This document shows, piece by piece, positions 2,076 to 52,449 of a stretch of DNA of 64,000 nt; within the stretch, counting starts at the first letter, position 1; each line of letters begins with the position of its first letter. The notes under the pieces are model-generated. The model ran no database searches, was not told the origin of the DNA, and was given only the letters and a program-made list of their open reading frames with translations. Source of the stretch: Bryoerythrophyllum caledonicum (Eukaryota; Streptophyta; Bryopsida; Pottiales; Pottiaceae); contig OZ020520.1 in NCBI GenBank assembly GCA_963971425.1, positions 8,412,553 through 8,476,552 on the forward strand, given 5' to 3'. A program made the translations under genes and the position numbers.

Positions 2076-2875
2076 ATGGCCTCCCAGTTGGTGCCATCGG
2101 AGAAGAAGGACATTACCCCAGTCATACCCAAAGATATCCTTGAGCTCACCGAGCTCAAAGAGGATCTCCTTCGCATGGGATGTCTTTTCCTAATAGAGTT
2201 CCGTTGGAGTTTTTGGGTGAAATCAACCGTGCAGGAGATGAGGCAAGACCCCTTACCCGAGCCCAATGGAGATAGCATCCGGGCTTGTCTGGATAGATGG
2301 ACCATGGGGAGGTGGCAAGAGGTGTACGGCTTTCCACGACAAGGGGCGGGATGGACAAGTACGAAGAAGGAGGAGTATGCCAAGGGGAGGTTCGGCAACA
2401 AGGACGCCAAGAATGGTTACGCGGTACAAGATTGCGTGGACCCCCGCGCCAGGAGGATCTTTGCATTCCTCGTACCCATCTTACACCCCGAGAAACCTAC
2501 CCGAGTGACGGTTACTCTTGCGAACACCGTGTATGGCTCCTACCTTGGCGAGAGAGTGGTGAATTGGGCCATCATCGTGAAGGATGTGGTGATTCGTTTG
2601 ACCTGGAGCATTCACAATGTCAAGCGTGCACCCCTCTGCCCATTTTTGATCCACCTATATCACCATTTCAAGGAGACAACTCCGGAGGAGGACATGGCGT
2701 ACGGAACGCAACTGATGATGAAGAAGTTTGAAGGGACAGAATCAGAACCCGAACCGGGGTCTGAAGGAGGGAGCAGCTCATCGCAGTCAGGAGAGGAGAT
2801 TGTACCACCCCCGAAGCGCCAGAGACCGAAACAAGGAGGAGCCCCCTCCACCCGCACCCGCGCAGCCATACGCAC
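2076..2875 (+). pseudogene. Element X ORF, copy A, first part
   Basis: Starts at the ATG of MASQLVPSEKK and runs open for 800 bases until the MULE target duplication. The same protein is seen in copy B at 29448-30209, with strong similarity from the EEDLLRMGC block to the NLS-like PPPKRQR block. Residues 1-200 look globular, with conserved WQEVYGFPRQGAGW and VPILHPEKPTRV segments. An acidic Ser/Glu-rich stretch and PPPKRQR follow. I do not recognise the family with confidence. It faintly resembles plant transposon proteins of the plant-mobile-domain or gag-like type, which is inference only. The gene continues at 17257 on the far side of the MULE. Joining the parts with one target copy keeps the frame (RAAIRTAATG). 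Confidence 0.7.
2866..2875. repeat. Target-site duplication of the MULE-like element, left copy
   Basis: CCATACGCAC occurs here and again at 17247-17256, directly flanking the inverted repeats. Copy B of element X carries a single equivalent site (CCATCCGCGC), confirming the empty-site structure. Nine to ten bases is the usual duplication size for MULEs. Confidence 0.9.
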
Positions 2876-2930
2876 GAGCGACGCTATTTTGTGAGCCTAG
2901 AGCAGTGAGCGGTGAGCAGAGAGCAGAAAA
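2876..2930 (+). repeat. Left terminal inverted repeat of the MULE
   Basis: Starts GAGCGACGCTATTTTGTGAGC. Its match at the other end, read on the minus strand from 17246, is GGGGAATGCTATTATGTGAGC. About 27 of the first 35 bases agree. GTGAGC occurs three times here and four times at the right end, and may be transposase contact sites (inference). Confidence 0.85.
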
Positions 2931-3286
2931 AATATACTCATTTTAGGAAAAATGATTATTTTATTATAATTTTATTATAAAATTTCCATTTCTATTTATA
3001 TTTAGTAAATAAATAGCCCTATTACCGTGTAAGTTTTACATAATAAAAAATAATATACGTCCATTAAAATAGGTTTAGGGTCAAAAAACTTGAATTACAT
3101 TAATCATTATACATAATCAGTAATAGATGAACATAATTGCCAAAAAAAAAAATAGGAATTTGTACAATCAAGACATTACACCACTGAAGAGATAAAACTT
3201 TGTAGTGGCCCTTTTAGTCTCACTACATTTTTACTGCTCATTGAATATTGATTGCAGTACAAGGATGCCAAACGACATAAGAAACC

Positions 3287-6200
3287 TTAAGGAATAGGAT
3301 GCCTAAGTAGACCACTCTCAAGAATATGCTTGATCTCGTTAAAGCTGAGACTTGGAGCATGTATAAACACATTAGTTTCGGAGTCTAATCCACATATCAC
3401 AATAAAAATGTAATACAAGTGTTTACAATTTGTCCACTGACCTCGCTTACCTAGAGATTTCCTCATCATCTCTTGGAAAAATGGACATGAACAAGTGGGA
3501 AACTGTCCAACAGTGATAGAGTATTGTTCAATTTTTGGAGGAGTTCCGGAATCAAACGTAACAACGCAGCCAAGAGCTGGAATAGGTATCATGGTCAACC
3601 GGCGAAGACGGCCTGTGACCAATAGGGCTGATGCACAAACATTGGCTTGTTTCGATGATGGTGCTTTTGCATTCCTACGAATGTTTTTTCCAAATCTCTG
3701 CTTGGGATGATCATCAGGAAATTCCGGAGAAATATATCCGGACAAATCGACTGGAATTTGCTGACCTTCAAATAATCTCCGTGGCGATATTGCAGCACGA
3801 GGCTGAAGATGAAATCCTGCATTCTCCAAAGCAAGAATCTCAGAGATGGTTAGATTAGTGCCCATCTTCACTGGCCAAGTCTCTGGCACAGCTGGTCTTG
3901 ACACCACCCACTTGCGCTTTGTACCCTTCACGCATCTTTCAATATCATCGTTGCAGAAGAAGAACTGCATACGCTCCATCCGGTTCCTCTGGTAATTGTC
4001 CATCATTCCAGTGTATGTTGGAGCCGCCGTGTTCTTACCATCTTGGACAATCTTCGCAACACACTTTTTCTTCGTAATTGCCTGTTGGGCAAAACATGCT
4101 TTCGCTGAGGTCTTAGGTAATCTTGCAATGTGCCACTCAGTCACATCGCATGCAGTTTCTTGGACAGAAGTCACATGCACTTTCGAAGGTGCAACAATAG
4201 TTGTCTCCACATCTTCACGTGCATTTTGTTGATCTTCATTTGTCTCTTCTTGAACTCCAGCTCTTGGTGATGCATCCTCTCCGGAAGTTGATGATCCGCG
4301 CCTAGTTTGAACACGAGGCCGAGAGAAGTTGACCTTGTCGGGTCTGTGGGAGTCGCCGTCGCAACCGGGAGGAAGATCTAACTTCCGTTTTAAAGAACCA
4401 AATACCTCCTCACCTTCAAGATGTGGTTCTCGAGTACAAATATAGGAAGCTCCAGGTAGTTTGGCCATTGCAGCATGGAGTGCTTTAGGATTACCTGATT
4501 GTTGAGTTGTACGCTGAGCCACTCGTAAGAGGAGTTCCTCCTTGTTAGGACCGGTGCCTGGTCGATCACCATTCAAATATTGGAAGTAGGCGACCACTTG
4601 CATGAAGGCTCGAACATAATCATCCACAGTTGCAACATAGAGATCATTGCCACGATTCCCAGACTGTTGTAACCACTTGTTATGTACGGTCTCCGCAAGA
4701 TTGCAAGAAGGCATTTCAGCCAACTCAGGTTCGGAGAGAGGCTGTCAAAAATCAAGCATTATACAAAATATTAGAGTAAAACAAAATAATGGATTTAGAA
4801 CCATCGATTAAAATTTGACAAATTCAACATTGACGTGGATATCATAAAGAGGATGGGTCAAAATATACCATTTGCATGAACCCGCCCCATTGGCGGTAGC
4901 GAAAATGCCAAAAGGCTAACCAAAGATCTAGATGGACGATCTCCTCATTTGTTGTTGCTCCAGAAGACAACCACCAAGATCGGATGGCATGGTATCTAGC
5001 CTCCGCCTCGTCAATGGTTTTTGCATCCTTGTATTGCTTGCACATTTGGCGATGTTGTGCTTGGAGATCCGGCCGAATACTTGCTTTTGTGTGTTTCTCC
5101 AAAGATTGGGTCCAATGGAAGAGACATGTCCTCTCTTGATTCTCCATAGGCACCGATGCATCTCCAGTACCGTAGATGATGCGAATAGCATTCCAATTTG
5201 CTTGTGCACTATCCGCCATAAATCCTTTAAATTTTGGGTTTGAAATGCCATGCCTGGCCATGATGATGTTGAGATTCTTCCAAAATAATATTTGGGCAGT
5301 AGCATCTTCTGACTGCATATCACAGACGGCAATAGTCATGACTCGACAGTATTGAGCGTCATAAACATGGCAAGCCATGGTAGTCCATCCTTTGACACGC
5401 TTGACGTGGTCATACATGATCCATGCGTTCTCCAAGTCCCCTCCAGACTGCATCCGCTTTACAAGATCTACTCCACTTCCGGGGCCAACTTCAGACATTT
5501 TGAAAACGAAGACTTTATCGGAGTCCGATCCTTGGCCAGGAAACTTGTTTTCTTGAACAAACGCCCACTTGCTAGATCCGCGAAGCTTAGTAATACTATC
5601 CATAACTCCAAATCGACGCAAGTACCGAAAGGTGGTGACCTTGTTGCGAATGCTTGGCGAAGTCATGTGCTTGCAAGTATTAAGCACGGGTATAAGTTCC
5701 TTGAATGTGAGAGTAGTTTGAGGTGCATCGTCAGAGTGAAGCAATAACTCTCCGACTAAATCCTTGCTTGCCTCCATTATAATGGCAGAATTGGTGGCTG
5801 AAGGTGTCCTCTCTACTTGCTCTCCTAGAATACTATCTGCCCTATCTGCAAATTCCCTATCAACTCCAATCTTCACAGGATGTGCATGTGAACCAAGGTG
5901 GATACAAGCACGAGTCATATGATCTTTAGTAAGAACATAATAGATTTTTGCAGGACAGATGGCTAAGCAAGAGGGAGGAACTTTACATACCTTACAGACG
6001 ACAGACGAACCTTTGGGATGCTCAGATCCTACGTCAAAGGTGATAGAGCTGAACCCATCCCATTCAACTTCATTTGCCGCTGAGGTTCGGTGAACTCGTG
6101 TCACATAATCACAGTTGACATTAAAACATTTGAGATGCCCCAAACAGGATGATGATCTGAATGTCAGCCCCATGTCGTTCTTAATATTGGATGTGATGGT

Positions 6201-6962
6201 TCGTGTCCACGCATGTCCGTCGTGTCGTTTGTCCATCCCACGGAGGAGTCGAGCTTGAGAGTGCGTTGTTGAGGCGCCAATAGGGGGAAGTTCAAACACA
6301 ATGTCTCCATCAAAAGTGGGTGGCAAGAATTCGACCTTCTCTACTCTGATACGGTTGTAATCAATCTTGGTAACTACAGACTTCGACCCTTTCCTAGCTG
6401 ATAACGTTTTAAGACAATCAACGACACTCAACGAATTTGAGGCACGTTGAGGAAGTGGAGGTTTGCCAATAGAACCCCGAAATGATTGAGAGGGTTGAGA
6501 GAGTGGAGAAGAGACAGGTTGGTCAACAGGACGAGGATGAGGAGGTACAGGAGCTGGAGAGTCATCATCGGAGTCATCACTAAGAAGATGGATAGGTTCA
6601 AGCCCAGGCTCTATCTTTACTGACCGGACAAGAGGTGTGTTGTGCGTGGAAGTAGATGACTGCCTTGGCGTGAGAAATTCAGCAGACCCATTAAGGAGAG
6701 AGTCAGAGAGACCATACAGTCTAAACCTCCCTGGCGTAAGGCGCCAGAACTTTACACCATCATTCATATAGGACAGTTGACCGATAGTATGTGTGAGCTC
6801 ACCGGAGGCATTGTCAAAAATCTCTTGATCGATGTGAATGGTCTCCTCCTGTAACTGAAACCTAAGACTCAATCGAGAAGCTGTAACAATACAAAACCCT
6901 TCATCTCCAATAGGAAATGAGACAGGGATTCCGTGCCCATTCGCATGAATGAAGGCCATCAT
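3287..6962 (-). CDS. MULE transposase with SWIM zinc finger (two exons)
   Basis: Exon 1 runs 6962-4869 and exon 2 runs 4741-3287. The intron 4868-4742 has GT and AG ends and joins in phase 0. The product is about 1,180 aa. I start at the Met-Met pair at 6962, because upstream codons contain no better ATG. Order: a Ser/Pro-rich N-terminal third; a cysteine cluster near 6080-6160; then the MULE catalytic region, with MYDHVKR near 5400, ADSAQANW near 5210 and CLFHW near 5120. The last two fit the D-then-C-x2-H spacing of MULE transposases. Exon 2 holds a SWIM finger, CSC near 3490 and CKH near 3425, typical of MULE and FAR1 proteins. I could not assign the third catalytic acid with certainty. 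It acts in the nucleus to cut and paste the element. No stop or frameshift is visible. Confidence 0.85.
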
Positions 6963-8030
6963 CAGAAGAAGAATTGTGCAATCTAGTACTTGACAAAGAA
7001 GAGGCAAATTATGGTGCTTGAAAACCAGTTGGAGTCATTATATATGCCAAGCAGGGTACATTCAAGTCAACGCTGTAAAAGGTGGAGTAAATTGAACATA
7101 ATTATTCATTGTAATAAAAATGCATTTAACAAAAGCAAACAGCGGTGCAAATAAATATATATAGCATATGGAAGACGGCGGAATTCAAGAATAACAAAAA
7201 AAATTGTATCTTATTGAAGGAGACAACAGAATGCCAAGATAAGTAAAATGTTATTGATCAAAAGAATAAAGAGATCTTTAGCATAGGATAAATATTGCCC
7301 CTATTGGGCAGCAAATAACACATTACATTGTGATACTCGGACAATGCTCGGCGAAGTAGTTTTTGAAATATACATGAATCACTGGCTCAAGCATTTAATA
7401 GACTAGAATCACAACTATACGATCCAATAAAATTAGTAAGAACCAGACAAGCAAAAAGTGGCATGACAATGCATGTAATTAAGTAATGACTAAAGGTCAC
7501 CAAAATAATGGAGATGGTAGGTGATACGATAATTTTTGAACTATCGAATTATAGTTGTTCAAAAAGTCGAGGAATGGCAATCCTCTCTGTTACATAAAAT
7601 TCTGTAAATAAGTCGTCCACCTGAAAATAAGGTGGGCGATCAATAATAATAGAATGGGAGGGTGAATGTAATTTGTTTTGGATTTGAAATAGAGCCAAGG
7701 AAGGAGGGGCAAAGATAAAGCAAATGAGGGATTTAGGCGCATTACACATGGGTACTTGACTGCGGATTTAGCCACAAAGCAAGAGAGCTTGACTCCACAT
7801 TACATCTCATGTCGGCACAATTCATGTGAGTAGATGCGGCGTGATTAACTTACCTCAATGTAAATTTTTCGACTAAATCTTACCCTCTCGATTATTTGGA
7901 TTCAAGATAGGTATCCCCAGATTTGTGCTTGACAAACACTATCGACTAGACTCAACATAGCCATCCTTTCTTTCTTCAACTTGCAGGAATACTCAAAGGT
8001 GAGAGTTTTGATGTCATTTGAGAGTTGCAG
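6963..8030. other. Divergent intergenic region of the MULE
   Basis: This 1-kb AT-rich region separates the minus-strand transposase start from the first plus-strand exon candidate. It should hold both promoters. Short open frames here lack supporting features. A splice acceptor-like tract (CTTTCTTCAACTTGCAG) ends at about 7984. Confidence 0.5.
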
Positions 8031-8501
8031 ATCCAGATGCCAGAGGAGAGAGAGGAGTTGTTATGTTTGGCAACTGCACAGAAGAAGAAACGTAGGAGGC
8101 GTGGTTTACGCTTCTCTAGTACGAAGCAACTAAAGAGGTATAGGATGAGCAAGAGAGTTGCTCCGAGGGTAGACAGTGATGTGGGGGACACTGCACGCGT
8201 GCTATCATTTGACACTGAGAATTGCAGAATCAAGGGCAGTTTAAAAACTGTTATCGAAGTGCAAGGAAGCCTGCCATCAGACCTTGTGCGGAGTGGTGGT
8301 GCTCGGAGCGGTAATCCTGGAAGCGGTGACTCGGAGGGGCGGAGGCAAGGGATGAGTCGAGGAGCCGAGGTGGAGGCAAACGAGATGGAAGAAGAGCAAC
8401 CACTTTTAGAGTTAGGTATAAGTGAAGCGCCTTCAAGTCAATCTGAGGAGCATGATGATTTATTGAACAGTCAAAGCAGTGAAGAACCAAAGAAGAGAAA
8501 G
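8031..8501 (+). CDS. Candidate N-terminal exon with basic NLS clusters
   Basis: The stretch begins after an AG acceptor (GAGTTGCAG) and ends at a strong donor (AAAG|GTAAGA) in phase 0. It encodes about 157 residues without a stop. It starts with a KKKRRRR cluster, is rich in Gly/Ser/Glu in the middle, and ends with EEPKKRK just before the donor. Both basic clusters resemble nuclear localisation signals. Orientation and exon phase are compatible with it being the first coding exon of the ParB-methylase gene downstream, whose first certain exons also join in phase 0. It could instead be a separate small gene. I do not recognise a domain. Confidence 0.5.
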
Positions 8502-10580
8502 GTAAGATTTGACTTGCTTTGCTTGGAACTTTTTGGACTTTTCATGTGTGTTTGAGAAAGTGAGTTTAAGATGCAAGTCTTCTCAGGTCAAATATTATTG
8601 ATTAGGAATGCTCATGGAATGGTGGCAAGGAATTGGAAGATATTGAGCTCGGTAGGCTTCGGGGCCGAAGCTTCATTTGGGCAACCATTAGGCCTTGTCT
8701 AAACATATTCTTTTTAGGGAAATTGACCAATATACTCTTTGAAAGTCAAAAATTTCTATCATCATGAAAGTATTTGATTGTAAATTACTTCCACTATCAT
8801 TCATCCAACTCATCTCAACCAGACTAATCAAATATTTACCAACTTTGGCTTTCTGTTGGATGAAAAACTTCATTTAGTATACATTAGTATTAGAGAACAA
8901 ATAAGAGTATAATACCCTCAACATGTGGGTTACATTTTGATCAGGTATTGATGCCATTATCAACAACTTCAAATACATTTGGTCCTTTAGAAGGTAGAAT
9001 AGTCACTGAGCTTCAGTGATTAGACTTCATACCACTATTTTTGACACAATTTGTCAAATGTCGAACCCATTTGTCAAAAGAGAGGGACAAACTGTTTGTC
9101 AGAAATTGAATGTCCGTGGGGCTAAATTATCATAATGAAGAATAATAGTTAATAAAAAATCAAGTCAAAATCATTCAATTATGTCTGTTCTATATATTAC
9201 AATTTCGATGAGAGACTTTAAAAAACAAGCAGTTCAGAAACAATAATGTATCTTCTTCCATCAATACATGTCTCCAAGTGTACATTTTCAGTGTACATTT
9301 CCAGAGATCAGATTCTAGACAAGGTCTAAGGAGTCCTGAGGAAAGCAAGTGTGTCACACAAGTTACACAAGATATATGGTATGGGAGGAGTCAGGACTGT
9401 GTACTGTATATGGTCGGTGAACGTGTGACGCTTGTCTCATGCATTTGTCCTCAAGTTCTTGTTTTTTACCGCTAACACTCAAAAAGAATTTTCAGAAACA
9501 TCGCACTGGGAGCCAGCTTCTTCTGTCCTTGATATTCCACAGCTGTAATCTCACGTCGTCGTAATCCTCGATTCGCACTCCAAGATGGGATTTTAGCCTT
9601 GTGTACAATGAGAGACATCAAGTACCTATTACCACTAATACATGTCTCTCATGTGTTGAATAAAGTATTTTGTAGATTTGAAGTCTAAAATGTCTCTGTT
9701 GTCTAGATATCTTCGCAACGATGTTCCTGTGAAGTGTAGATGATGACTATTCTGTGCACGATATTCCTGTGCATGTACCTTCACCTGCTCTAGATCTGGA
9801 GATCACAGATCCCAACTCTGACGGAGTGCCGGCAGAAACGGATTCGCCGGTTCAGTCTTGCAGGATTCGTCACAGAAGTTTGCAGGATTCGTCACAGTCT
9901 TGGTGAGAAGTTTGCTGGATTTGTTGCTGGATTCGTCGCGTATGTGGTGATTGTCGTGTGTGTGCTGGATTCGTCGAAGTTGAAACTTGTGGTTGTTGGC
10001 GTACTCTGGTTGTGTCCTGGTGCGAACGCTAGATCGATTATGGGTCTCGTTAGGTCTCGAAGGTTTCCGTTAGGTCTTGTTAGGTCTCGAAGTGCGACGT
10101 TAGGTTCCAACAGCTTATTAGGTTCCAACAGCATATTTGTGAGCTGCTCCGAGGATGATTGAGCTTCGAGAGGAGGAGGCTTCGGCGCCGAAGCCTTCTC
10201 GATGCGCAGAACGCAGTATCTCCGCCGACTTCCTGGCGACAAGACCTCGACCTCTCAGCGCCGAATTTTAGGCACCACGGAACAGATTCCATCGTGACAG
10301 CCAGTGGCCAGACACGCAGCGGGACTCTTCGCCGCGGAACACAGTGCCGGGACTGGCATCGAGACTCGCACCTGGACCTGCAGCGAGACTTGCACCTGGA
10401 AACTTCGCAGCCAGTGCCGGAATTGCAGGAGGACACTCAGGGAAACTTCGCAGCGGGACACCCAGGGCCGGGACTAGCACAATCTCACCAACAGTGTCGA
10501 CTTCTTCCGTGTAGGTCGTTCAGTTTGATAATTGTGTTGTGGGGGACTTTGGCTGGTGATAGGAAGTTGACAGAAGAACG
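8502..10580. other. MULE region with no certain gene; palindromic SAP-motif remnants
   Basis: No long open frame is supported. A palindromic GC-rich stretch at 8655-8674 (GGCTTCGGGGCCGAAGCTTC) and one at 10179-10196 (GGCTTCGGCGCCGAAGCC) resemble the short exons at 10581 and 10743. The second lies in a frame giving EEASAPKPS. Between 10200 and 10500 the sequence is richer in C and G than its surroundings and holds repeats of a GGGACTxGCACCTGG type. Extra small exons could exist here but cannot be fixed without transcripts. Confidence 0.4.
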
Positions 10581-13500
10581 ATGGAGGCCCCTCTCGGAGA
10601 GAGTTCGGCACCGAACCCTCCTGTTGTTACGAATGTAAGTCTTCCAGTTGATTACGGTTCTTTCAGTTGATAACTGTATTTGCGCTTGGTGCGCTCGATG
10701 CAAAATGTTTTGAAAACCTTACGGTTCTCTTGTTGGTCACAGGAGGGACCCGAGATGACACAGGATGTAGAGCTGCTGGAGCCTTCGGCCCCGAACCCTT
10801 GCATGGCGACTGAGGTAAGCCTTAACCCCGAAATTCGAAATCGACCAGAATGTTGTCAATCTGACTCTGGTCAGGCTCTCAGTTACTAAATTAAGATCTT
10901 ATGAAGTTACAATTTTGGAAGATTGTAGAGTTTTCCGAGACCTTTAAAATGACACCATTTATGCTTGAAAATTCCTCATACTTTAGGAGATATTCACGGT
11001 CAAAGGTCGAGATCTTCAAAGGTAGCAGGTCGAGCAACATCAACGCGTCGATGGTCTGTGCATGCATATTCTTCACGTCAATGAAGCCCATGTAGGTCTT
11101 GATCTCGAAGTACTCCCATATGTCCTTGTTAACCCCTAAAGTCGAAATCGACTTCTGGAAGGTTGTAGAGTTTTCCCATACCTTTAAAATGACACCATTC
11201 ATGCTTCAAAATTCCTCATACTTTAGGAGATAATCACGGTCAAAGTTTGAAAACACTGTTAGGGCATGCTGAAATCTGTCCAAAACTGCAGTGTATGCTC
11301 ATTTGTTCTCAAAATCTGCCCAAAATCAGATAGATCGCAGTAACTTCAAAAATTCACCAAAAATTGAGATTTTACATTTTTTCGAATTTTGTTTTTCGTT
11401 CATGTAAAAGGGGTAGTAAAGCATGATCTCACCGTTTGGATTTTCAATTCAATACTCTTTTTCATGCCTGTATTGTTGAAATTAAGCTTTTGTATTTGTA
11501 TATCAGCATACCTCTATGTGAAAAATTAAGCATTTCTTAAGGTTTTATAGGTCCTGAGATGGTAAAAATCATATGGACATATACTCACATAGGAACAAGA
11601 ATTTGAAGAGCCTCATGTCAAATTTCCTGTCAAAAATTGTTTTTTGGCCCCCAATACATTAGTTTTCCATTCTACAACAAGGAAAAAATGGTTTGTTTCA
11701 ACTTTGATCATTTCGATCTCACAAATGGTGAGAAATTTGAATCTAAGATTTGGTATGCATGTACATGTATAAGTTAGGTACTAGATCTTACGGTTACATA
11801 CTCGAAAATTTGTCAAAAGATAAAGATTTTCACCTTGCATTGAAAGAGGGCAGTTTTGAGGGTTTTTGGCAGTTTAGAGGCCTTTCGACTTTAGGGGTTA
11901 ATATTCTGCCTGAATTGTGCACATTGTCTATACTATTATATGTTTATATGGACGTAAGTGTTGTGCTCCTGTTCGATTTGAAATAATGTCAATTTAATTG
12001 GACTTTTCATGGAAATTATCCTGTGCTCATATTTCATGCCCCATGTTTAATGTGCCGCATGTGTTAACCCTGACTATTTTGAATGTATTGAGACCACTCT
12101 ACTTTCATGATATGTGTGTTACCTTGATTTGTTTTTTTGAAAGCTTTGGCATTATCTAGTATTGCTATGATTTAGTGAATTCTTTAATATTTGGATACAG
12201 GTCTCTGATTCGGTGGATTCAGTTGCCGACTCCGACGACTGCACAACGGTGAAGTGTCCACCAGATTGCCACGATGCTAAAGAAGGGGAGCGATTGCGGC
12301 GCAAGTTGGAGAAGCGAGACTATCACTCCGTTTTAAATAGCATGCGATCTTTGGATTCAGGGTTACGAATCCCATTATGCAGGCTCTTACCTTTGCCACG
12401 AGTTAGACCAGTTCAAGAGGTGGATGTCCGACGCTTGGAGATTCTTTTTGAAGATTGTGATGGATATGATGATGCAGATCGTGCTCTATACGTGTCCATC
12501 TACAATGATAAGGAGACCACTACTGACGTTGGAGACGAGCATCGGATTTCTTGGGGTCATCATTGGCATGATGCAAATGACCGGTTTGACGCCCAGCTTG
12601 AGTCTTCACCTTTATACGCTCATCTGAGAGGTAAGATGTTCTATGTTTGGGATGGCAATCACAGATTCTCCGCTTGGTGGCGCAAAATCAACAACGATCA
12701 TTCTGAGGAGGCTCGCTGGCATTTCTCAGTCATCTGCATCGTCTTGGACCCCCGAGGCCGCATTGGACCTCTTCTGAATGCAATGAATGACGTTAACTGG
12801 TATGTCTTTGAAATTTCTATTTATTCAAATTCCATTTTTTCATTTATTTTCTTTAACCACTCTCAAATTAGGTCCACTCAAAATGATCATGTCAAGACCA
12901 GTCTCCCTGCTCGATTGACACGGATGCGATATTTTGGAGCACTTTCATTGGAGGACTTTCGTGACTTGCTGACTCCCACTGAGTACAAAACTTGTGGAAA
13001 AATAAAAAAGAGTAGGCCGACGTGGTTCCCTCTCACGGTTGATGTCTTCATCTCCTTTTTGTATCGGGTGCGTTTTCTTTTATCACATTTGAGATTTCAA
13101 GATTATTTCACTCAATATTTAATAAATACTCAGTTGCTGATAATAGAAACTTATCCCCAGGCGGACATATCCCGTGCTTCTGATGAGGCTGTCCGTGAGT
13201 ACAATGATCGTACTCAGGAGAAGGATAGGACTGCGGAGGCCGTGTGGGGGGTCATGCAGGCTGCTTCAGAAAAAGCCATTAAAGTCATTAAGCAGAGGGA
13301 CTTTCTAAAGTACTTGACTGTGGCGAATCCTAGAAATGGGGAGGATTTCTTCAATCAGGTTAGAGCATTTCATCTCTATTTCTTCTTTCATGTCATTTAC
13401 ATATACTGTCTTTCATGACTTTTCATATTTTATTTATTCTCATATATCATAAATATTTTTTATGGGCAACAGATCAATTTGCACTATAGTACAAATTCCA

Positions 13501-16174
13501 AGCCGGAGATGACGATTGAGAAGCTTCAAAAGATTGCAACATCTGTGGTGGAGCCAGAATTCAAAGCCAAATGGCTTCGGTGGTGGAATTCAGGCACTAT
13601 GCGGCGAGCCGCCTACCGCTTCCTTCCTACCAATTTTAAGGAGGCAGACCTTGATACTTGGCTCAACAAAGCCACATTTTGGGCTCAGGTAATGTGATTT
13701 CCTTGCATTCATTCTTCTTCTTCTGTAACTTCATTTATTTCCACTCCTTGATTATATATCTTCTTTGCAGATCGAAGACCGTGTTGTCAAGCAGTTCAAT
13801 GAGATTTCTGGTGATGAATTGGGTAATATTGATTGGAGTGCATCTGGAGGCATCAAAAAGCCCTCAGATTTTGTGGAGTCTTGGAGAATTTTACTTTGGG
13901 ACAAAGCGTTCCAAACTTTTCTCCACCCAAATGCTACCCCTCCTTTTATGAAGGGATCCATATTTGATGATCATCCTGGAGCTCAATTGGCAGAGAGACG
14001 GGTGTTATATCGGTAATATATGAACCTTATATATTTATAATTGTCTCCTTTTACTACATTGAATTTTTTGAGCTTACTAAATATTTTTCTTTTGGCAGAT
14101 ATATGATGCGGGAGCTTATTACTAAACATGCCATTCCATCTCAATCTCTCCCACCCTATGTTGAAGCTTGGATCAAGCTTTCCTCCGACCTTTGCATGTA
14201 TACTCCAGTGCAACAAAAGAGGTACGCAACCAATCACCTCCAAGCTGGGTGTTGGTACCTTGATTGTTCACCAAACTATACTCCGGACGATGAGGTACAC
14301 ATTAGGAATAGCCTTGATGCTGCTTCTGTGTCTCCTATTGGAGCTACCGACGTTGTCGACCTTCTTGAGGAAGACTCCATTCAACCAATTCATGTTCGTG
14401 GCGACGGTTCTTCTCAGAAGAAGAAACCTTTGACCAAAGCCCAGAAGGAGGCGGTAGACAAGGTTGCGCAAGTGAAGGAGGTAGGAGATGCCACTACTGC
14501 TGCGGCCTCTAGTCTTCCTACATTCTCAGTATTACCTAGCAATATCACTGCCCCAACAAGTGACCAACATGGTATGTTACCACACTCTTCATCTCAGTTC
14601 CCTACCACTTCAAGTGTTGCACAAGCCACGGAGGAGCTCCTTGGGCAACGGAAAGTCCGCCAGCTGCCCTCTGCTTCAACCTCTGTTGCACAGATACATC
14701 CTTTGGAGGTGATGTTGGAAAATGCATCCCTTTTTGCGGTAATGGAGACTCTTGGTAGGCCAACAGGCCCTGATCAATTATGGGAGAAGCTTCATCAATT
14801 TATTACCCAGGTATTTTTTCATATTTATTACCTATTTTGGTTCTTTAGACTATTCATCAGATTATTCATCATTTCATCTCATTCCTTATTGTTTCATGCA
14901 GGTTGGTTCTGGTCGAACACGTCGTGTGTCTTCTCCACATTGTAAGAACACCGGTCTGGATCTCATCATCGCCGACATTCCAGAGAATCTGCCAGTGCCT
15001 GGCATTTCAATGCCGCCTTCGACAATTCCACAATGGAATTCACGACCTGAACGGTATGTAGAGTCCATTTTTGAGTTTGGTGATGCATATTTGCATGATG
15101 ACGCCGCCATTCTTCTATTCCACTGCGATGATCGTGCACTCTGTTCCGAAGTTGAAGAAGTTGCGGAGCAGTATAGCTTCCACCTTTGTAAAGATTGGTG
15201 GGGAATTAATGATATTGCCTTGGCATCACCAAAGTTCCCCTCGACCACGGTACGATATATTTTCCAATTCCATTGTCTCTTTTGGAATTTTTTTTATCAT
15301 TTTTGATTTTTAATGGATTGGGTCTATTGCAGTCGCATCGCTTTTGGATCCAGCTCTTTGTCCGTGATGAACCCATTCAATCACAGTTCTCTATCATAGA
15401 GAATCGCGAGCTTTCGGATGTGGGTCTCGAAGTTGAGCAGACTGACACTTTTTTCAATCTCACCACCGTCAAGAACCAGCTCATGCGAGGGAGTTTGCCC
15501 TGGCGTGGTGCACGGGAAAAAGATCCCCTTTTCATGCAAGTCTTGATTGAGTCCTTCACAAAACCTGGTGACATCGTGTTGGATTGGAAGGCCTCCACTG
15601 GTACCTTTCATGAACTCTTTATTTATTTTTGCAATTTGATTTATTGTTAACCATTATCATATGATTATTTATATGTTTTCTAATTCTTGCAGGTGCCTCT
15701 ATTCGTGCCTGCCAAGCCACTGGTAGGCACATTGTTGCATTTGAAGATGATCTGGATATCTTCACTACAATCCTACAGCCTTTGGTTGCTAAGCCTTCTC
15801 CTCCTCCGGCGGTTGCCAGGAAGGCTGTCAGGAAGGCTAGCCAGCCTCTTTTAGAGGAGCGCCCATCAAAGAAGCCAAAACGCAATCGATTTGCCTGTGC
15901 GTAAGTTTTTTTTTATTTATCCATTCTAAAATATTTGTAATCCATATACTCTACTTGTTAGCGGATCACTAACTGTATGTTATGCAGAGCTTTTCGTTCG
16001 AGCCTTCTAGAGGCTTTCACGCTTCCAAGCTATGCCGAGGATATGGCTATTGCATATGCACACACTCCTTCTCCTGCTCCTTCTCCTCCCCGCCGCGCAT
16101 TCCATTCAAGTGTGGAACAATTTATGGATGTTGAGGCTTCGGAAGGGGATGTTAGTGAGGGATATAGTAGTTAG
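10581..16174 (+). CDS. ParB/Srx-like domain fused to degenerate class-beta DNA methyltransferase domain
   Basis: Twelve exons: 10581-10634, 10743-10814, 12201-12799, 12872-13067, 13161-13358, 13473-13688, 13771-14012, 14099-14810, 14902-15249, 15333-15600, 15693-15900, 15988-16174. Every junction has GT-AG ends and phases agree, giving 1,099 residues. Residues 105-230 fit a ParB/sulfiredoxin-like domain: PVQEVDVRRLE, then FYVWDGNHRFSAW (DGNHR at 193-197). The middle is Ser/Thr-rich with basic KKKPLTKAQKE. The C-terminal third follows N4-cytosine/N6-adenine methylases in class-beta order: LDLIIADIPE (788-791, DPPY position), a sheet-rich core, then FTKPGDIVLDWKASTG (963-969, SAM-loop position). 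A basic SKKPKRNR tail follows. In prokaryotes ParB-methylase fusions modify phage or plasmid DNA. Here PPY and most loop glycines are gone, so methylation seems unlikely while SAM-fold or DNA binding may persist. The 5' end is uncertain. Confidence 0.8.
10912..11244 (+). repeat. Direct repeats of about 93 bp in the long intron
   Basis: Two copies, about 10912-11006 and 11152-11244, share blocks such as TTGTAGAGTTTTCC, CTTTAAAATGACACCATT and CTTTAGGAGATA. Between and after them, TTAACCCCTAAAGTCGAAA (near 11129) recurs in inverted form near 11880. The 1.39-kb intron (10815-12200) therefore probably contains an older inserted repeat. No coding potential is seen. Confidence 0.65.
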
Positions 16175-17189
16175 GAAGGGTCTTCACTTGTAGCCCGTGA
16201 TTTTACTAGTATTTGTATTTTCAGTGTCATTGATTTGTGAGTCCGACATGCATATTTTTTATGTGCAATTTGGCTAACAATCATTACATGTGTTTCTAAA
16301 TATTTATTTTATATATTATCTATTTTGTATATGGCCTACTACTATTCATAGTTTTATTTGTGGGCCATAAATAGTGACTAATGTATTAAATATAATGAAG
16401 TAAATAAATTGGTAGAATTTATGAGAATTTACCCTTAGTTAGTCAATTAGATGTGTGTATATGATTAGCAAAGATGTTTCACTCAAATTTGAATTTCTAG
16501 TTTAGCAAGGATTGTATTTATCAAAGTCATTTTGTATTAGTGGGTAACGGTGACTTATCTAGAGAAATGATATGGATGGAAGTTGTACTGGTTATCACTA
16601 ACCAGTATTAAAGCTTGAGGTTTCTCATTGCAAAAAACATGTTTTTAAATAATTGAAAATAAAAATAAAATAAAAATATAGACAAAGAAAGAGAAGAAAA
16701 TGAAAATGAAGATAAAATTTTAAACAAGAAAAAATAGAAGAAGAAAAAAAGGTAAAAACGTTATTATATATATATAGATATAAATAAAGAAAAGAAGGAA
16801 ATGAAGAAGAGAAAAAATGGAAAAGAAGAAGAAGAGAATAATCTTAAAAGAAAATGATAAGAAAATAATGGAAAGAGAAAAAGAAAAAGAAAAGAGAATG
16901 AAGAAAAAAAACAAAGAAGAAGAAAAAGAAGATGAATGGAGATGAAGAACAACAACAACAATATAAAAAAAAATCAAATAAAATCAAATCCTCCTACCGT
17001 TTTGTTTGCTCTTTTTTTCTCAAAATTTCAATACAACAGATATAATGTCAAAATGCCCCACTCACTTTAAACAAATCCCACGGTTATAGAACCTCTAATT
17101 ACTAAAAAAATCCATCCAACCTCTGATAATCCACGGTAATAAATCCCTAATATCTAAATTTTTGGAACTTTCATCTCGTCGTCGCTTAA
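16175..17189. other. 3' flank of the ParB-methylase gene; A/G-rich tract
   Basis: AT-rich noncoding sequence. From about 16640 to 16975 the plus strand is almost pure purine (GAAGAAAAAGAAG type). Open frames on the other strand are Phe/Leu/Ser low complexity and are not genes. The polyadenylation site of the gene should lie near 16200-16330 (TATTTATTTT runs). Confidence 0.6.
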
Positions 17190-17246
17190 AATTCTCTGCT
17201 CACCGCTCACAGCTCACCGCTCTACGCTCACATAATAGCATTCCCC
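17190..17246 (-). repeat. Right terminal inverted repeat of the MULE
   Basis: Read on the minus strand it begins GGGGAATGCTATTATGTGAGC and continues with GAGC-containing heptamers, GTAGAGC, GGTGAGC, TGTGAGC and GGTGAGC. It pairs with the left repeat at 2876. The target duplication follows at 17247-17256. Confidence 0.85.
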
Positions 17247-17256
17247 CCATACGCAC

Positions 17257-23448: not shown

Positions 23449-24127
23449 CTATATCTCATAGCGGAAGCAAGCATCCGGAACTTCAAAGTTGAATGGTTTA
23501 GCCATTAGCTCGTCAACCACTTTGCAAAGTGTTGGACGTTTGAGGGGATCTTGCTCGAGTAATTTCTCGATCTTCACTTGAAAAGCTGCGTAGTTGATGG
23601 TTGATTTGAAGAATGTTGAATCAAACTCTTTCTCCCAAATCGCTCTAGCCATCCACCCAACGGAGTACGAATCGGCGAGCTGGGTGTATTGGTGTCGCCG
23701 ATGCATCACATCCAATGTCGTTTCTGAATCTTGTCGGCCGAATTTGTAAAAAAAGTCTGGAGCTACCAAATGTCGTCTCTGGCGTTAATTGTCAAGCTCC
23801 GTGTCCATCGGGAATCCATATTTTGATGGCTCTTTGTGTGATACTCGGATCGCAATTCCCCAATCACAAACGCCAATGTAGACAGACCCTGGTTTCTCTG
23901 GAGGGAAGCGGAGAAGCACGTTTGTGGGAGCGATGTTATTGTGAATGACATTTGCCTTGAGGACTTGGGCCATGGTGCACATCAAAGCCCAGGCAAGTCT
24001 TGCTCTATTCTTCCGGAAGGCTAAGTTTTGTGTTGTATCCTCCGCCGAAATATATAGAACTGAAAGGATTGAGTTGCTCGAGGCCGCCGGATTTGCCTTT
24101 GAATCGACGGTTTTAAAATGGGCCCAG
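23449..24127 (-). pseudogene. Kinase-like gene, C-terminal part, cut by the gypsy element
   Basis: From 24127 downward one frame gives ALMCTMAQVLKANVIHNNIAPTNVLL, written here in pieces: the catalytic loop HNNIAPTN (family form HxDxxxxN), then VCDWGIA (DFG position), then a C-lobe with SYSVGWMARAI and DPLKRPTLCKVVDELM. The catalytic-loop Asp is Asn and DFG is DWG. The Asn is one G-to-A change from Asp, so decay is as likely as a genuine pseudokinase. An in-frame TAA at about 23788 is one change from CAA. The N-terminal part is 24 kb away at 49145-48239. Removing the gypsy element plus 5 bases puts both parts in one frame. Confidence 0.75.
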
Positions 24128-25716
24128 TGTGAGATTCCGTTCCCACATGGTGCCGGACGTTAACCTTAAGTTCCGGCCAAAACACAAAATCTTAGTAATT
24201 AATTATGATAGATTGTGCCAGGATACAACCAATAGTCTTCAGGTAGGAATAAAGTCGGATCGACCCGACTGCCAACCCTAATTAAGCCTAAAGATGTTAA
24301 AAGCAACGTCCAAGAAGGCGAAGGGCAAGGCGCGCGTTCCGGTGGAGATTTCCCCCTCCCGCCGGAGTGGGAGAAATCAGGGTCCCGGTGCTCCTACTTA
24401 GGGTTAAACTAGGTTGTAAGTTTCTTTTTGTTTATTTTTTTTTCTCAGGGTTAGAGTCCGGATCAGCAGCGACCAACAATGGGGCCCCAAGTGCACCCGG
24501 CTGCTACCGGAATCAATAGCCAAGTTTTGTTAGAGAAGGAAGTCCGGAGTCCAGGAACTGTTCCAAGATTTTAGGATCTGAGATCCGATCTGGGACTTTT
24601 CCGGATTTCTCGGATCTTTTAGATAAGATCTAGCAGATTTCCCATAGTCATAGGTAGAAAGAAATATGAATTTGGGGAATTCAGAGAGTACTTGGTAGGA
24701 GGTTTTGGGAAAACCTTCATCTTGTTCATTTCACTCGAAAATATACGTTACCTTTTTCACTAGATTTGCTACCTTGTGTTATTGTGGGACGTGTGAATCC
24801 TGTGAGTGACGGATCCATTTTTGAGGGTGTGGTTGTCTGAGGAATTCTTCCGGACTAGGGTAACTTACTCGTTTTGCCGGAGGGGGAAGTTATCGAGGGT
24901 AGTGTCAGGAGATCGCTCAGGAGAGCTGGAGAGAACTATTGCAGAGGTGTTCCTGGTAGTCCCCAGGGTCCGGAAGTAGCCAGGAGGGGAAGAGATGAAC
25001 TGCAGAGGTGTTCCTGGTAATCTCTAGTTTACGGAGGAAATCGTGTTAAACTGGATCCCGGTCAATACCAGAGTTCTCCCCTAAGATAGGAAAAAGCCTG
25101 ATACCAATACCTAGATAAAATAACCATAGCAAACCGTGAGTCTCTATTCCGGAGATTTACAATCATACCCCCCCCGGAATGCCGTTGTAGCCCGGATTAG
25201 TCTTTTTGTGACCGCATTCGGAAGGCCTTTCGGATGTCGTGAAAGCCGAAGTCCGGTAGCAGCAATCGAATTACCAGTTAGCATAGTAGGGAGAGTGGTG
25301 TTCGATCACTATAAGTTCCGGACAGTGGGTGTCTAGCCACTTTAAGTCACAGGGCAGTGGGAAACCCAGCCACTTACACAAAACAGTGTCAGTGGACTTC
25401 GGCCACTCGTTTAAAAACTCTAGGAGACTCTCTGAGGAGGAACAAAGACTAATCAAACTACCCTCCGAATTTCCGGAACCTATTCTCCAGAAACCATTGT
25501 ATAAAATCCGGATCCGGACGGATCCGGATCTAACCTAAGTAAGAAAGGACTTTAGCTAAGTCGTAACCGAATTGCTTTGGTAAGCTTAGTAATTCGGAGT
25601 ATTGGAAAGAAGATATTTAGGTCTCTGTGGGAACGAAACCAGAGCGGTTACTTTGGGAAGCTCTTAGTGACGATTAGGAGCATTCCGGAGGAATACTGTC
25701 TATACGAACTGCAACA
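24128..25716 (+). repeat. Gypsy 5' LTR
   Basis: Matches 46654-48238 over its full length. TG...CA ends. CTCTGTGGGAACGAAACC lies about 100 bp before the 3' end. A GGATCCGGACGGATCCGG stretch occurs near 25505. Confidence 0.93.
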
Positions 25717-33870: not shown

Positions 33871-34740
33871 CCCTCAGCTTTGAGCGGACATACCACACGG
33901 AGTTCTTGCTCAAATCTTATGTTTGATGACATTTTGGACATCTACGTTTTACAAGCATGTCGAAAATGTCCTCACACTTGATATTTGAGCAAGTAATCAA
34001 GCTGATATGGCCTCCTGTCCGCGGGGAGTCCGTGGGCTGTCCGCAGCCATTCTGCATACCCCCTCAACTTTGAGCGGACATAGCGCACGGAATCCTTGCT
34101 CAAATCTTACGTGTGAGGACGTTTTGGACATCTACGTTTCACAAGCATGTTAAAAATGTCCTCAAACTTGACATTCAAGTAAGTAATCTAGCTGATATGG
34201 CCTCTTGTCCGCGGGCAGTCCGCGGGCTGTCCGCAGCCATTCTGCGTACCCCCTCAACTTTGAGCGGACATAGCGCACGGAATTCTTGCTCAAATCTTAC
34301 ATTTGATGACATTTTGGACATTTACGTTTTACAAGCATGTCGAAAATGTCCTCAAACTTGATATTTGAGCAAGTAATCAAGCTGATATGGCCTCCTGTCC
34401 GCGGGCAGTTTGCGGGCTGTCCGCAGCCATTCTGCGTACCCCCTCAACTTTGAGCGGACATAGCGCACGGAATTCTTGCTCAAATCTTACGTTTGATGAC
34501 ATTTTGGACATCTACGTTTTACAAGCATGTCGAAAATGTCCTCAAACTTGATATTTGAGCAAGTAATCAAGCTGATATGGCCTCCTGTCCGCGGGCAGTC
34601 CGCGGGCTGTCCGCAGCCATTCTGCATACCCCCTCAGCTTTGAGCGGACATAGCGCACGGAATCCTTGCTCAAATCTTACGTGTGAGGACATTTTCGACA
34701 TCTACGTTTCACAAGGATGTCAAAATTGTCCTTAAAAGTG
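33860..34740 (+). repeat. 190-bp tandem repeat, five units, left arm
   Basis: The landmark GAGCGGACAT recurs at 33882, 34072, 34262, 34452 and 34642, an exact 190-bp spacing. Each unit holds TTTGAGCAAG, a CTTGTAAAACG-like block in inverse form, and the AGTCCGCGGGC core. Confidence 0.9.
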
Positions 34741-35735
34741 TAGTTTGATTTGAGTATCAGGGTTGTAATAGCTAGACTCATTGTCCACAACTCTATCGGA
34801 CCCCATCCAACTCCTTCTATTTTGGAGGTTGTAGCGGAATAATTATTCCTTCATTGTTTCTTGTGAAGATACTTTTGGCATCAACATTTAATAGGGATGT
34901 TAAGAACCTCTTTCTTTATGTGATTTGAATAAAATGTGAGGTTGCTAGAGCCTCCTAAATGTGGCCATATTCTCCCACCCTACTTCGACTATCTATCCAA
35001 CTTTGAGGCCTTCTCCCTCTTCCTCATTCCTCCCTCTTATTCCCTCTCACTCCCACTTCCTCTCTTGCCCTCTCCTTCCCTCCTACTCCGTCTCCATCTC
35101 CTTCCCCTCCCTCCTTCCACTCCCTTTCCCTCCTTGTTTGCTCTCCATCTTCTTACCCCTCTCTCTTTTGTTATTTCTTTCTCAATATCTTTCTTTTCTT
35201 GTTTTTTTTTCTTAAATTCATTTCTTTGTGGATATGAATATTTTCAACTTAGACTTCATGATTTTGTTTTTCGAATAAACAAGTATCTCTTTTCTAAATT
35301 TCATCCTTATTGAAATCCTTCTTGCTCTATTCTTTTCATGTGTTTTTATTCTTAGTTAATAGCTTGGTGTTTTATTTTTTTGTTTAAAATGGTTAAATGC
35401 TCAATCATTGATTCTAGTGTTTCACGGTAGGCTTCTTCTATGAAGTATGTTCTTTAAAATATCCATATGGCATTCAAATTTAGTTCTACCAACCAATTAG
35501 TTTGAAGCAACTTTATGGTTGGTACAACCTTCTAAAGATAATTTGTGAAATCCTTGCAATCATTAGTCTTTATGGAGCTCCCTTTTTACCCATATGAATC
35601 ATATAAGATCCATCTTTGGCATTAATAGTTTGTATGGATATCCAATTTGTCTTTTCATGTAGCATTTGGTTCCATATGGAAGCTCTTTGGAGTCCCAAAG
35701 CATCAACCCTTCTTCCTCCACCTCCTTAATTCTCT

Positions 35736-38700
35736 TCACGGTTTGTAGGTGAAAAAGTCTATGAAGAACGTAATATTTCTGCAAGGGTTTGGTTCAAATT
35801 CAAGGAAATTGAATAAATTGATTTACATACGAATAAGTTATTGAAAAAGTTGTCGTTTGATTGAAATATATTATATTCATTGCATATTATAAAAAAACAT
35901 GACAATGTTTGTGGATAGGGAAATATTTTAATATTTTGTGGCAATTCAACTTTAAATTTTTGCGTTTAAAATCCATGTTTTTTCAACAAATCAATGATTA
36001 CATCTTTTTGAGCTTTTCATACTTTTGTGTTTTTAAACCCCTAAAAGCCCAAGTGTCACAAAATGACAATTTGAAAATTTGGTCAGGTTCCAATGGTGTC
36101 AATTTCTAACATTCTTCAAAAAAAAATTATTGTAGAAGGGCATTACTAAAAACTATTTGGGAAAATGATTTTTTTCTAAATCCGATATCATATAAAAAAT
36201 TTATAGCAATTTGAATTTCAAACGGGGAGAGCAGGCACATCGGGCACCTCCAAAACCTTTTGCTAGTATAGTCTATTGAATGTGAGATTTTCAATACTAG
36301 CAAATAATATTATTTCCTTTCATATTTTCAAAAAAAAAATCTTGTCTTGAGTGGAAAATAGCGCATGAACCCAAGTCAAAAATTTCCACATTTTGCCTCA
36401 CATTGTCGGGCAAGGTACCAAAAAAAAAACTTCTTACCACATGAAACTTAGAGATTTTAATTTTTTTCAATTTTGATTTTTTCCACAACATGTGGTGTAG
36501 ACCTTCATATTGACCGTTTGGATCATCAATCTAAAACATGTAAAGTTTCTAAAAAACTAAAACGTGAATTGGCAGTTTTTGAACCTCCTATTCTAGCACA
36601 GTTGACTTGAATAAGCTACACCCTTTTTCTACCTCTAAAAATTTGTGTATAAGGAACTAACATCATCCTTAATACAATAGTAATGGATTTAGACCTTATG
36701 TAGCGCAAAAATTTGATACCAAGTGAAGTCAAAGTCTACTGATCCACCAAACACAGGGAAGAAAATGAACCATTTGCTTTACTTCAAACACTATAATCTT
36801 TCAATCCGTGCGGTTAAAGTTTATGAAATTTTTTGGGGACATCAATAAGGAAGTCATTATTGAGATCCTTTAATTGGATGTTGAAATAAAAAGTTTTTGT
36901 CTCCCTTCTTAGGCATTATTTTGAAGTGTTTTTGGTGCAAAAATGCCTTGGGCCTTTAGGGGTTAATCTAAAATATGTTGATTTGATTTTGTATGCAAGG
37001 CGCTTAGACCAAAATAATTCCTTTGAATTGCTTGCATATGTATGGTTGTTCAAAGTTTTAGAGCTTAAAGGTGTTGGTTGTTTGTTTTAATTTTGTTCCA
37101 AATGGAAACAAAGAAATCATTTCAATTGCTATGGTGCCGAGATTGGCGCACAGTAGAGTTTGCAGAGGTGGTTTAAGTGTTAGAAACCACCTAATATAGT
37201 GATATGTTCTTTTGTTGTGGCAAGGCATTAAAATTAACTCTAATTAGATATCAGGGTTAGTTTTAGTGCCAAGTGGCTTTAGGGTTAATGATGGTGTCTT
37301 TTGGACACCTCATTTGGGACTTGGATCTCAAATGACCTTTGTAGATGTTGTTGGGAGACTTATCTTTCACAAATTGAGTCTCCCACATAACAAAGTGAGG
37401 GTGTGTTTGCACACACCGCTAGCTCCATTATTATCATGCAATCATTCATTAAGAATGGCATGGACTTGACTATGTTGTAATGTATACGTGTTTTCTACTT
37501 ATTTATTAGTAAAGAGGTCTGTGGACCGCTTACTACATGAAAGTATTAGTGATTATGGACTCTGAATTTCTTTTCCCGAGTCTTAGTTGTTGATAGTGTT
37601 TGCTTTATAGTATGACCTATTGTTTTATTGTTCGTGGGGATAGCGGTGTTAGTTTTGGACACTTTTGGTCCCGGGTTTTGTCCAGAGGGGTGTGCGACTA
37701 CTCATGTGGCACGATGTTATCTGCACACGATGTGGTGGTGCATGACAATGGTTTAAAATAAGATTATGAATTTTGATATACTGCAAATTCTATTGAAACT
37801 CTAAATGTATCTATTCTCAAATCTCCAATTAGATTTTGGCTAATTTAATTGAAGAGGTAGGTAAATTTTTTTATACTTTCTAGATAGAAGTTTTTATTTT
37901 TCTTTGCTTATAAATCATTTAAGATTTGTAATGCCTTGTATTCTTTGAAGGTTATTGGTGCTATTTCATGAGAGAATTTAAAATCAAAAGTGGACTTAGT
38001 ATTACATAAGTATTGAACCATTATTATAAAGTTGGAGAAGGAACACTAGGTAGTAGGGGGTATGTTAGAAAAATTTCATTTTTATTTAATTTTTAGTTAA
38101 AATCAAATGTGCAAAAGGGAGACCAAAATTTTTAACTACGTGTCCTATGCTATGTAGGATGGATGTGCATTTCTTTCATAGTTTCACATGATTGGGCAAG
38201 CTACCAAAAACATTTCTTCTTTTCCAAATAAACTTATAAATATTCATATTTCTTACATTCTATTTTTCAACTAGAAGATGTGGTGTAACCTTTTTATTGA
38301 CCGTTTAGATTCTTTTCCTAGAAGATAATAGTTCAAAAAACATTATAAAGTGGCTTGGCAATTTTTTAACCTCCACTCCTTGCATAATTGTTTTGAATAT
38401 GCTTCACTCTGTTTCTACCTCTCAAATTTGGATTACGAGCAACTAATATCATGCTAGATATGATGGTATTGAACTTAGACCTTGCGTGTGCAAAGACTTG
38501 ACACTATGTGGCGTTAAGGTCTTGCTAATCTACTCAATTTAGGGAAGAAAATGAATTGTTTTCTCTATTCCAAGCACCATAATCTTTCAACATCTGCTGT
38601 CAATGAGTATGAAATATTTTGAGTATGTGACTTAATAAGTTTTAATTGAGGTTAATTAGGATTCTACGGTTAGAATTAAAAATAAGAGGTTCTCTTTTCT

Positions 38701-46642: not shown

Positions 46643-46650
46643 AAAAGGGG
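46641..46650 (+). other. Polypurine tract of the gypsy element
   Basis: GAAAAAGGGG lies three bases before the 3' LTR start. This is the usual plus-strand primer position. Confidence 0.75.
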
Positions 46651-46653
46651 TAA

Positions 46654-52296: not shown

Positions 52297-52440
52297 CGCA
52301 CGGCCCTACAACGTGCGCGTCCGGCCCACAACGTGCGTGCTCGGCTGCAAGCGTGCGCGTTCGGCCTACAGCGTGTGCGCCCGGCCACATAGAGTATGCA
52401 CCCAGCCCCCCTTGTGCGCGCCCGGCCCTAGATGCTCCTG
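52297..52440 (+). repeat. GC-rich minisatellite of 19-21 bp upstream of hAT2
   Basis: About seven units of the CGCGTCCGGCCCACAACGTG type, related to the arrays at 49340 and 22860. The array borders the gap, so its full length is unknown. Confidence 0.8.
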
Positions 52441-52449
52441 CTCTAGCAC

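Follow-up and report, generated by a model that had tools for sequence, protein, structure and literature searches.

A spliced gene with predicted ParB-like and methylase-like folds in a recently active MULE-like transposon of a moss

The stretch of DNA analysed here, hereafter the window, comprises 64,000 nucleotides of the moss Bryoerythrophyllum caledonicum (assembly GCA_963971425.1, contig OZ020520.1, positions 8,412,553 to 8,476,552 of the forward strand). It contains a large, recently active DNA transposon of a streptophyte genome that resembles Mutator-like elements (MULEs) and carries, divergently to its transposase, a spliced gene for a protein of 1,099 amino acids (aa). We refer to this gene as the ParB/MTase-like gene: modelling supports a ParB/sulfiredoxin fold near the N-terminus of its product, and sequence comparison supports a class-beta N4/N6-methylase-like fold near the C-terminus. 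We propose, with about even confidence, that the protein serves the transposon as a DNA-acting accessory factor, joining a ParB-type domain binding nucleoside triphosphates (NTPs) to a methylase fold that probably does not methylate bases. Two observations go beyond a first-pass annotation of the same DNA, namely that the gene belongs to a mobile element whose ends and target duplications can be defined, and that motif IV of its methylase-like domain is non-canonical.

The transposon spans 14,371 bp (2876..17246, no strand assigned), which is the span common to eight other copies. In the host genome (437 Mb, 894 contigs), the rbcL piece scored higher with land-plant Rubisco (702 bits) than with Chlamydomonas-type chains (about 665 bits), in line with a streptophyte host. 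We searched this genome for copies and compared ten of them by Blast with positions 1-26000 of the window. Eight were 99.8-99.9% identical to the window over 2876-17246, with ends within 5 bases; a ninth (C4i) covered the element in pieces at 90-97% identity, and the tenth (C11j) was a truncated element. In the window, the transposon is flanked by the 10-bp target-site duplication ccatacgcac (2866..2875 and 17247..17256, plus strand), and a perfect 10-bp target duplication was found in all ten full-length copies compared, the window among them. Target duplications of MULEs measure 8-11 bp according to the accessible text of a MULE survey (PMC6446971). The element ends in imperfect terminal inverted repeats of ~55 bp, the left one (2876..2930, plus strand) matching the right one (17192..17246, minus strand) with 41 of 48 bases identical between the ends (E=4e-11).

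The left half of the element encodes the transposase, a spliced frame of 1,182 aa in two exons on the minus strand. Its first exon (4869..6962) has an uncertain start codon, with the frame open to 7007, and its second (3287..4741) closes with what by eye is a SWIM-like motif, C-x-C...C-x-H. We take the frame to carry a D...D...C-x-x-H plus SWIM-like pattern, recognised by eye against the consensus; the Pfam SWIM match was weak (E=1.1). The first-pass annotation had assigned the carrier to plant-type MULEs. The ends and the 10-bp target duplications agree with this assignment, but no MULE transposase profile matched the 1,182-aa frame at E<=10, and MULE membership therefore rests on the ends, the duplications and the motifs seen by eye.

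The ParB/MTase-like gene lies on the plus strand of the same element. Twelve exons with GT-AG borders join in phase to one frame of 3,300 nt (1,099 aa plus stop), exactly as first annotated, and exons 3-12 were recovered exactly by a spliced protein-to-DNA alignment with a program purpose-written for this analysis (query: residue 43 onward). Exons 1 (10581..10634) and 2 (10743..10814), which give the first 42 residues, are tentative because only the window and its close copies support them. Exon 3 (12201..12799) encodes the ParB/sulfiredoxin-fold domain, with DGNHRFSAW at 12651-12677. Exons 4 (12872..13067), 5 (13161..13358), 6 (13473..13688) and 7 (13771..14012), each placed by frame, spliced alignment and intron positions, are followed by exon 8 (14099..14810), which covers a variable linker region. 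The methylase-like fold is encoded by exon 9 (14902..15249), where LDLIIADIPE occupies the motif IV position (DIPE at 14974-14985), and exon 10 (15333..15600), with the motif X/I region and DIVLDWKASTG from 15570. Exon 11 (15693..15900) carries RHIVAFEDD and a basic KKPKRNR stretch that by eye resembles a nuclear localisation signal; GDIVLDWKASTG and RHIVAFEDD span exons 10-11. Exon 12 with the stop codon (15988..16174) completes the frame and was placed by frame and spliced alignment. In the protein, a conserved middle region (~450 aa) separates the ParB-like domain, near the N-terminus, from the methylase-like domain, near the C-terminus. As a separate observation, introns 3 and 4 are open and in frame, and an unspliced message could give a longer variant (12201-13358; open reading frame (ORF) 12213-13418).

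Evidence that both halves belong to one gene came from its many copies. Among the eight near-identical full-length copies, seven kept the frame without stops or indels, the exception being C8c with one stop, and all eight kept GT-AG at all 11 introns; in the more diverged copies C4i and C11j the frame was broken. Within the same genome, we considered the best 150 of 1,706 candidate places for exon 3 and the best 150 of 1,695 for exon 9 (49 with 90-100% identity, the other 101 with 53-65%), so that the family fills at least 150 places in one genome. Among these listed matches, 124 of the 150 exon-3 places were followed on the same strand by exon 9 at a median distance of 2,706 nt (2,701 in the window), compared with a mean of 0.09 and a maximum of 2 in a shifted control, with 78 of the 101 exon-9 places at 53-65% identity taking part in such pairs. 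We fetched 12 of these 101 places as divergent paralogues (L029-L040; 40-51% aa identity). In seven of them, all nine introns of exons 3-12 fell within 1/3 codon of the window positions, in four exactly, and L030, L036 and L039 were free of stops and frameshifts. Beyond this genome, a full-length homologue of 31% identity (L043) contained no stop and had five of its six introns at identical residue and phase. Because exons 3 and 9 co-occur on the same strand and the introns match in the 31%-identical homologue, these sequence data support that the two halves form one spliced gene, which argues, on genomic DNA, against the possibility raised in the first-pass annotation that they belong to different genes. 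A chance ORF was rejected on the grounds of the intact frame in near-identical copies, the linkage of exons 3 and 9, and the shared introns.

The divergent paralogues also allowed estimates of selection, after L029, L033 and L037 had been excluded from the protein alignment as broken or badly aligned. The ratio of nonsynonymous to synonymous divergence (dN/dS) over the coding region was 0.12-0.20 in the 10 of 21 pairs whose dS stayed below 1; the rest were saturated. The only usable pair with both members intact, L036 and L039, gave 0.12 overall, 0.08 for the ParB-like and 0.13 for the methylase-like part. Judged by these ratios, the coding region is under purifying selection. Stops were present in L035 (1), L038 (5) and L040 (3). 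Between L035 and L036, dS was 1.6-1.7 in the ParB-like and middle regions and 0.11-0.35 in the linker, the methylase-like part and the C-terminus; they are probably mosaic copies from recombination within the gene.

To characterise the N-terminal domain, we searched a metagenome-scale database with an alignment of residues 80-312 from six members, which retrieved 139 proteins at E<=1. An AlphaFold2 model built from 90 sequences reached a predicted local distance difference test score (pLDDT) of 89.8 and a predicted TM-score of 0.80, while a single-sequence model (pLDDT 39.9) was set aside. In a Foldseek comparison with the PDB, ranks 1-34 of 43 all had the ParB/sulfiredoxin fold (Noc, sulfiredoxin, ParB, PadC, KorB, SbnI), with E-values of 0.034-4.2, probabilities from 0.99 for the top match to 0.10-0.20 for the weakest and TM-scores of 0.18-0.37 by query length; an unrelated chain first appeared at rank 35. 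Likewise, among the best 50 of 141 matches in a viral structure library, 31 were informatively named, and 25 of these were ParB, ParB/sulfiredoxin, partitioning or occlusion proteins. At profile level, PHROG 1033 ('ParB-like partition protein') weakly matched 9 of the 90 members (best E 0.05), the most of any of the 43 weakly matching families. The model supports a ParB/sulfiredoxin fold for this domain, the setting in which DGNHRFSAW had first been placed.

The pattern W[DEK]GNH[RK]..[AT]W was present in 107 of the 120 listed N-terminal homologues, with Arg in 106 of the 107, and 13 of the 120 lacked it. From our reading of the fold, [DE]GNHR would lie at the P-motif/Box II position. According to the accessible part of PMC12704722, ParB-fold proteins bind CTP, ATP or GTP, and the conserved P-motif Arg is required for NTP binding. 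The ParB-fold domain of the moss protein probably binds a nucleoside triphosphate as well.

For the C-terminal domain, profile comparisons pointed to class-beta amino-methylases. In the window protein, PF01555 matched residues 944-993 (E=1.9e-4; 21.9 bits, below the 26.7-bit cut-off), an NCBIfam amino-methylase profile matched below its curated cut-off (E=2.4e-4), and PHROG 3008 matched with E=6e-8; the alignment as query matched DpnA in the PDB (E=0.0015). The homologue P0140 matched PF01555 over profile positions 9-193 of 221, again below the cut-off (E=5e-4, 20.5 bits). L043 and P0123 on their own gave no methylase match. The motif order is that of class beta, with the IV-like motif at residue ~788 and the I-like motif at ~960, and the PF01555 alignment of P0140 spans both. 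At profile level, the sequences point to a probable class-beta N4/N6-methylase-like fold.

The profile-level fold and the motif order of the class-beta amino-methylase that had been annotated near the C-terminus were retained, but its catalytic motif was not: [DNS]PP[YFW] occurred nowhere in any of the 29 methylase-domain matches. In a profile alignment that does not presuppose Glu, the 21 matches covering the motif IV place read DIPE (15), DVPE (2), DLPE (2), DITE (1) and DVPD (1), so that D[ILV]PE stands at motif IV in 19 of 21 homologues. The family alignment had DIPE in 9 of 10 rows (DISE in L031), L043 had DVPE, and mostly NLPVP followed. Motif I reads DWKASTG in the window; among 17 aligned segments, nine had ASTG, two CGVG (P0137 and P0138) and one AGTG (P0140), a GxG motif I being present in few homologues. 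As the changed motif is kept down to a 31%-identical protein, it points to a used site and not to decay, and it lends no support to ordinary base methylation. The working 'modification enzyme' of the first-pass annotation is therefore not upheld.

The transposase and the ParB/MTase-like gene lie divergently inside one element with exact ends, and we asked how widely this pairing recurs, taking the best 108 of 2,759 candidate transposase places in the same genome. Among the matches listed, 42 transposase and 41 exon-9 places formed 42 divergent pairs with a spacing of 8.0-14.6 kb; regardless of orientation, 46 pairs lay within 20 kb, these 42 included, and a shifted control gave a mean of 0.3 and a maximum of 3 divergent pairs. 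By transposase identity, the linked share was 19/21 at 90-100%, 0/14 at 82-87% and 23/73 at 71-75%. The intact paralogue L036 had a transposase homologue divergently upstream, which showed 59-63% identity across roughly the first 790 residues, contained 3 stops and was cut by the end of the stretch taken. Six elements combine a transposase of 71-72% identity with a ParB/MTase-like gene of 95-100%, and therefore the modules are exchanged between subfamilies, yet stay paired.

Under the accessory-factor reading, the protein would act in the nucleus, as the basic stretches seen by eye in exon 11 and the linker suggest. There, the ParB-fold domain would bind NTP, and the methylase-like domain would contact DNA. 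With D-x-P-E, which has an acidic residue in place of the catalytic aromatic one, this latter domain is probably a DNA-binding or altered S-adenosylmethionine (SAM)-dependent module, and not an ordinary amino-methylase. The likeliest task would be to aid the expression or movement of the element's own DNA, as an anti-silencing factor or a transposase cofactor. By analogy, an unrelated protein would here do what VANC and MURB do in other MULEs.

Several results weigh against this proposal. The accessory function is read from the anatomy of the element, in whose non-coding parts short tandem arrays (10043-10137 and 16656-16990) are the sole standouts. Among the matches listed, 66 of 108 transposase and 109 of 150 exon-9 places had no partner; this includes all 14 transposases of the 82-87% group, which lacked a divergent partner within 20 kb (two had a ParB/MTase match within 40 kb in another orientation). 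The accessory gene may be dispensable for transposition, or its partners may lie outside the best-scored matches. On the side of the domains, the Pfam ParB profile PF02195, which had been suggested as a check together with the fold comparison that AlphaFold2 and Foldseek bore out, matched none of the 90 members at E<=1. No Foldseek match reached E 0.001 in the PDB or the viral library, and the TM-scores were modest. Finally, the conservation of DxPE is equally compatible with an altered active site and with a non-catalytic one.

An active DNA amino-methylase that places N6-methyladenine (6mA) or N4-methylcytosine (4mC) on transposon or host DNA, and thereby marks, protects or de-represses it, would account for the profile-level fold, the retained class-beta motif order, the purifying selection on the methylase-like domain and the GxG motif I of P0140, P0137 and P0138. 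We nevertheless consider it unlikely, given the complete absence of [DNS]PP[YFW], the prevalence of D[ILV]PE and the loss of the first Gly of motif I in most aligned segments (ASTG in 9 of 17). A more speculative idea, to which we likewise assign a low probability, keeps chemistry at the site: a ParB-type NTP-driven clamp would be joined to a methylase fold whose active site has been rebuilt (in most members D-x-P-E-N-L-P-V-P), and on the element's DNA or chromatin the protein would catalyse a reaction that depends on or senses SAM and differs from ordinary 6mA or 4mC formation. If true, a transposon would thereby have a novel means of marking itself or of spreading along its own DNA. A similarly low probability goes to a pure transposition cofactor, a ParB-type clamp that would help the transposase at the element ends or in choosing targets, with no silencing role. 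MuB, which helps MuA, offers a loose parallel. The divergent pairing with the transposase and the six elements with swapped modules speak for such a cofactor, whereas the partnerless 82-87% transposases speak against it.

The remaining explanations deny the element any benefit or the gene its unity. MULEs are known to pick up pieces of host genes and additional ORFs (PMC6446971, in its accessible text), and a domesticated host gene or captured Pack-MULE-like cargo would fit this habit. We regard it as improbable here, however, since the gene is full-length and intact in eight of nine near-identical copies (counting the window), accompanies the transposase also in subfamilies only 53-65% identical in exon 9 and has a low dN/dS. 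Least probable is an annotation accident in which two adjacent genes or a pseudogene were taken as one: although the gene model derives from genomic DNA alone, order, strand and spacing agree at 124 of the 150 listed exon-3 places, and five introns share residue and phase with the stop-free homologue of 31% identity. The reading as a DNA-acting accessory factor is the one we favour.

Regarding its origin, the gene had been proposed to be prokaryote-derived, a view for which our searches returned no relative in viral contigs and none in phage records beyond one chance-level match (E=9). Residues 60-1060 of the protein had no match among 5.8 billion sequences; unlike this whole-protein query, the domain alignments did retrieve relatives, and none of the 149 listed homologues (120 N-terminal, 29 methylase-domain) carries a precomputed Pfam domain. 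The only match in genome_contigs was L043 (CADCWO010000058.1), a contig within a cyanobacterial metagenome-assembled genome. This contig has introns, and we take it for eukaryotic DNA binned into that genome, probably a contamination of a public genome. A recent capture of the gene appears unlikely because the domain order and five introns are common to this 31%-identical homologue. Gene 1 of phage Vincenzo (L046), a match in the viral structure library, was rejected as a near relative, as its motif order differs and the profile comparison was not significant.

A second gene beside the transposase is a trait shared with an autonomous MULE of maize, MuDR, which carries mudrB. To our knowledge, its product MURB has neither a ParB nor a methylase fold. 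VANDAL MULEs of Arabidopsis likewise encode an accessory protein, VANC, which acts on related copies and is not described as a ParB or methylase protein in the accessible parts of PMC5735166 and PMC13317346; factors of the VANC type hypomethylate related copies through short motifs, and anti-silencing by the moss protein would be an analogous role. Other mobile elements carry captured chromatin- or DNA-modification genes: DNMT in charophyte and dinoflagellate retrotransposons, TET/JBP in fungal DNA transposons and SET in an oomycete MuDR. These are other enzyme families, and the text available to us mentions neither a ParB fold nor an amino-methylase among them (PMC5890265; PMC12730594). In the MULE survey PMC6446971, the extras in the accessible Table 1 are SET, ovarian-tumour-gene, FAR1, PMD and DUF, with no methylase or ParB, and the word 'methyltransferase' does not occur in the main text.

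The precedent of phage ParB-methylase fusions, cited in the first-pass annotation, is in print: the accessible part of PMC12704722 reports fusions of ParB with PF01555 (N6_N4_Mtase) as enriched in phages, names sulfiredoxin as the commonest eukaryotic ParB fold and contains no word beginning 'transpos'. These phage and prophage proteins likewise join a ParB/sulfiredoxin fold to an amino-methylase-type fold in a mobile-element setting. Unlike them, the moss protein comes from a spliced gene, is ~1,100 aa long, of which the middle region makes up ~450 aa, resides in a plant DNA transposon and has DxPE at motif IV. In gene 1 of Vincenzo, the only phage protein examined, a motif-I-like stretch precedes CPPY by eye, which is another permutation. 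Our literature search, outside which lay most subscription papers, bioRxiv preprints and Repbase, found no description of a ParB-methylase in a MULE. Thus, MULEs with accessory genes and ParB-methylase fusions are each known, whereas their union in plants, the changed catalytic motif and the intron-rich gene are apparently undescribed in the literature searched. With this element, a ParB fold enters a plant transposon that was active recently, in fusion with a methylase-like fold that bears an unusual conserved motif. Intact, very young copies whose ends are known offer a way to test whether a ParB-like clamp serves transposons against silencing or for transposition.

Elsewhere in the window, direct repeats of ~1.35 kb (24113-25468 and 46639-47991), 22.5 kb apart and 95-96% identical in the 300-nt stretches compared, flank Ty3/gypsy-like pol and integrase ORFs (43766-46483). 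From their motifs, we take the unit at 24113-47991 to be a long terminal repeat (LTR) retrotransposon with large insertions. Within it lies a foldback-type element with inverted arms of 1,058 bp (34684-35741 and 39913-40970; 99% complementary, 4.2 kb apart), outside which ~180-190-bp tandem units occur. A 447-aa ORF at 53391-54734 presumably represents the C-terminal half of a hAT transposase, judging from a motif. The ORFs at 7-669 and 51425-52456 share similar RING-like Cys/His motifs by eye.

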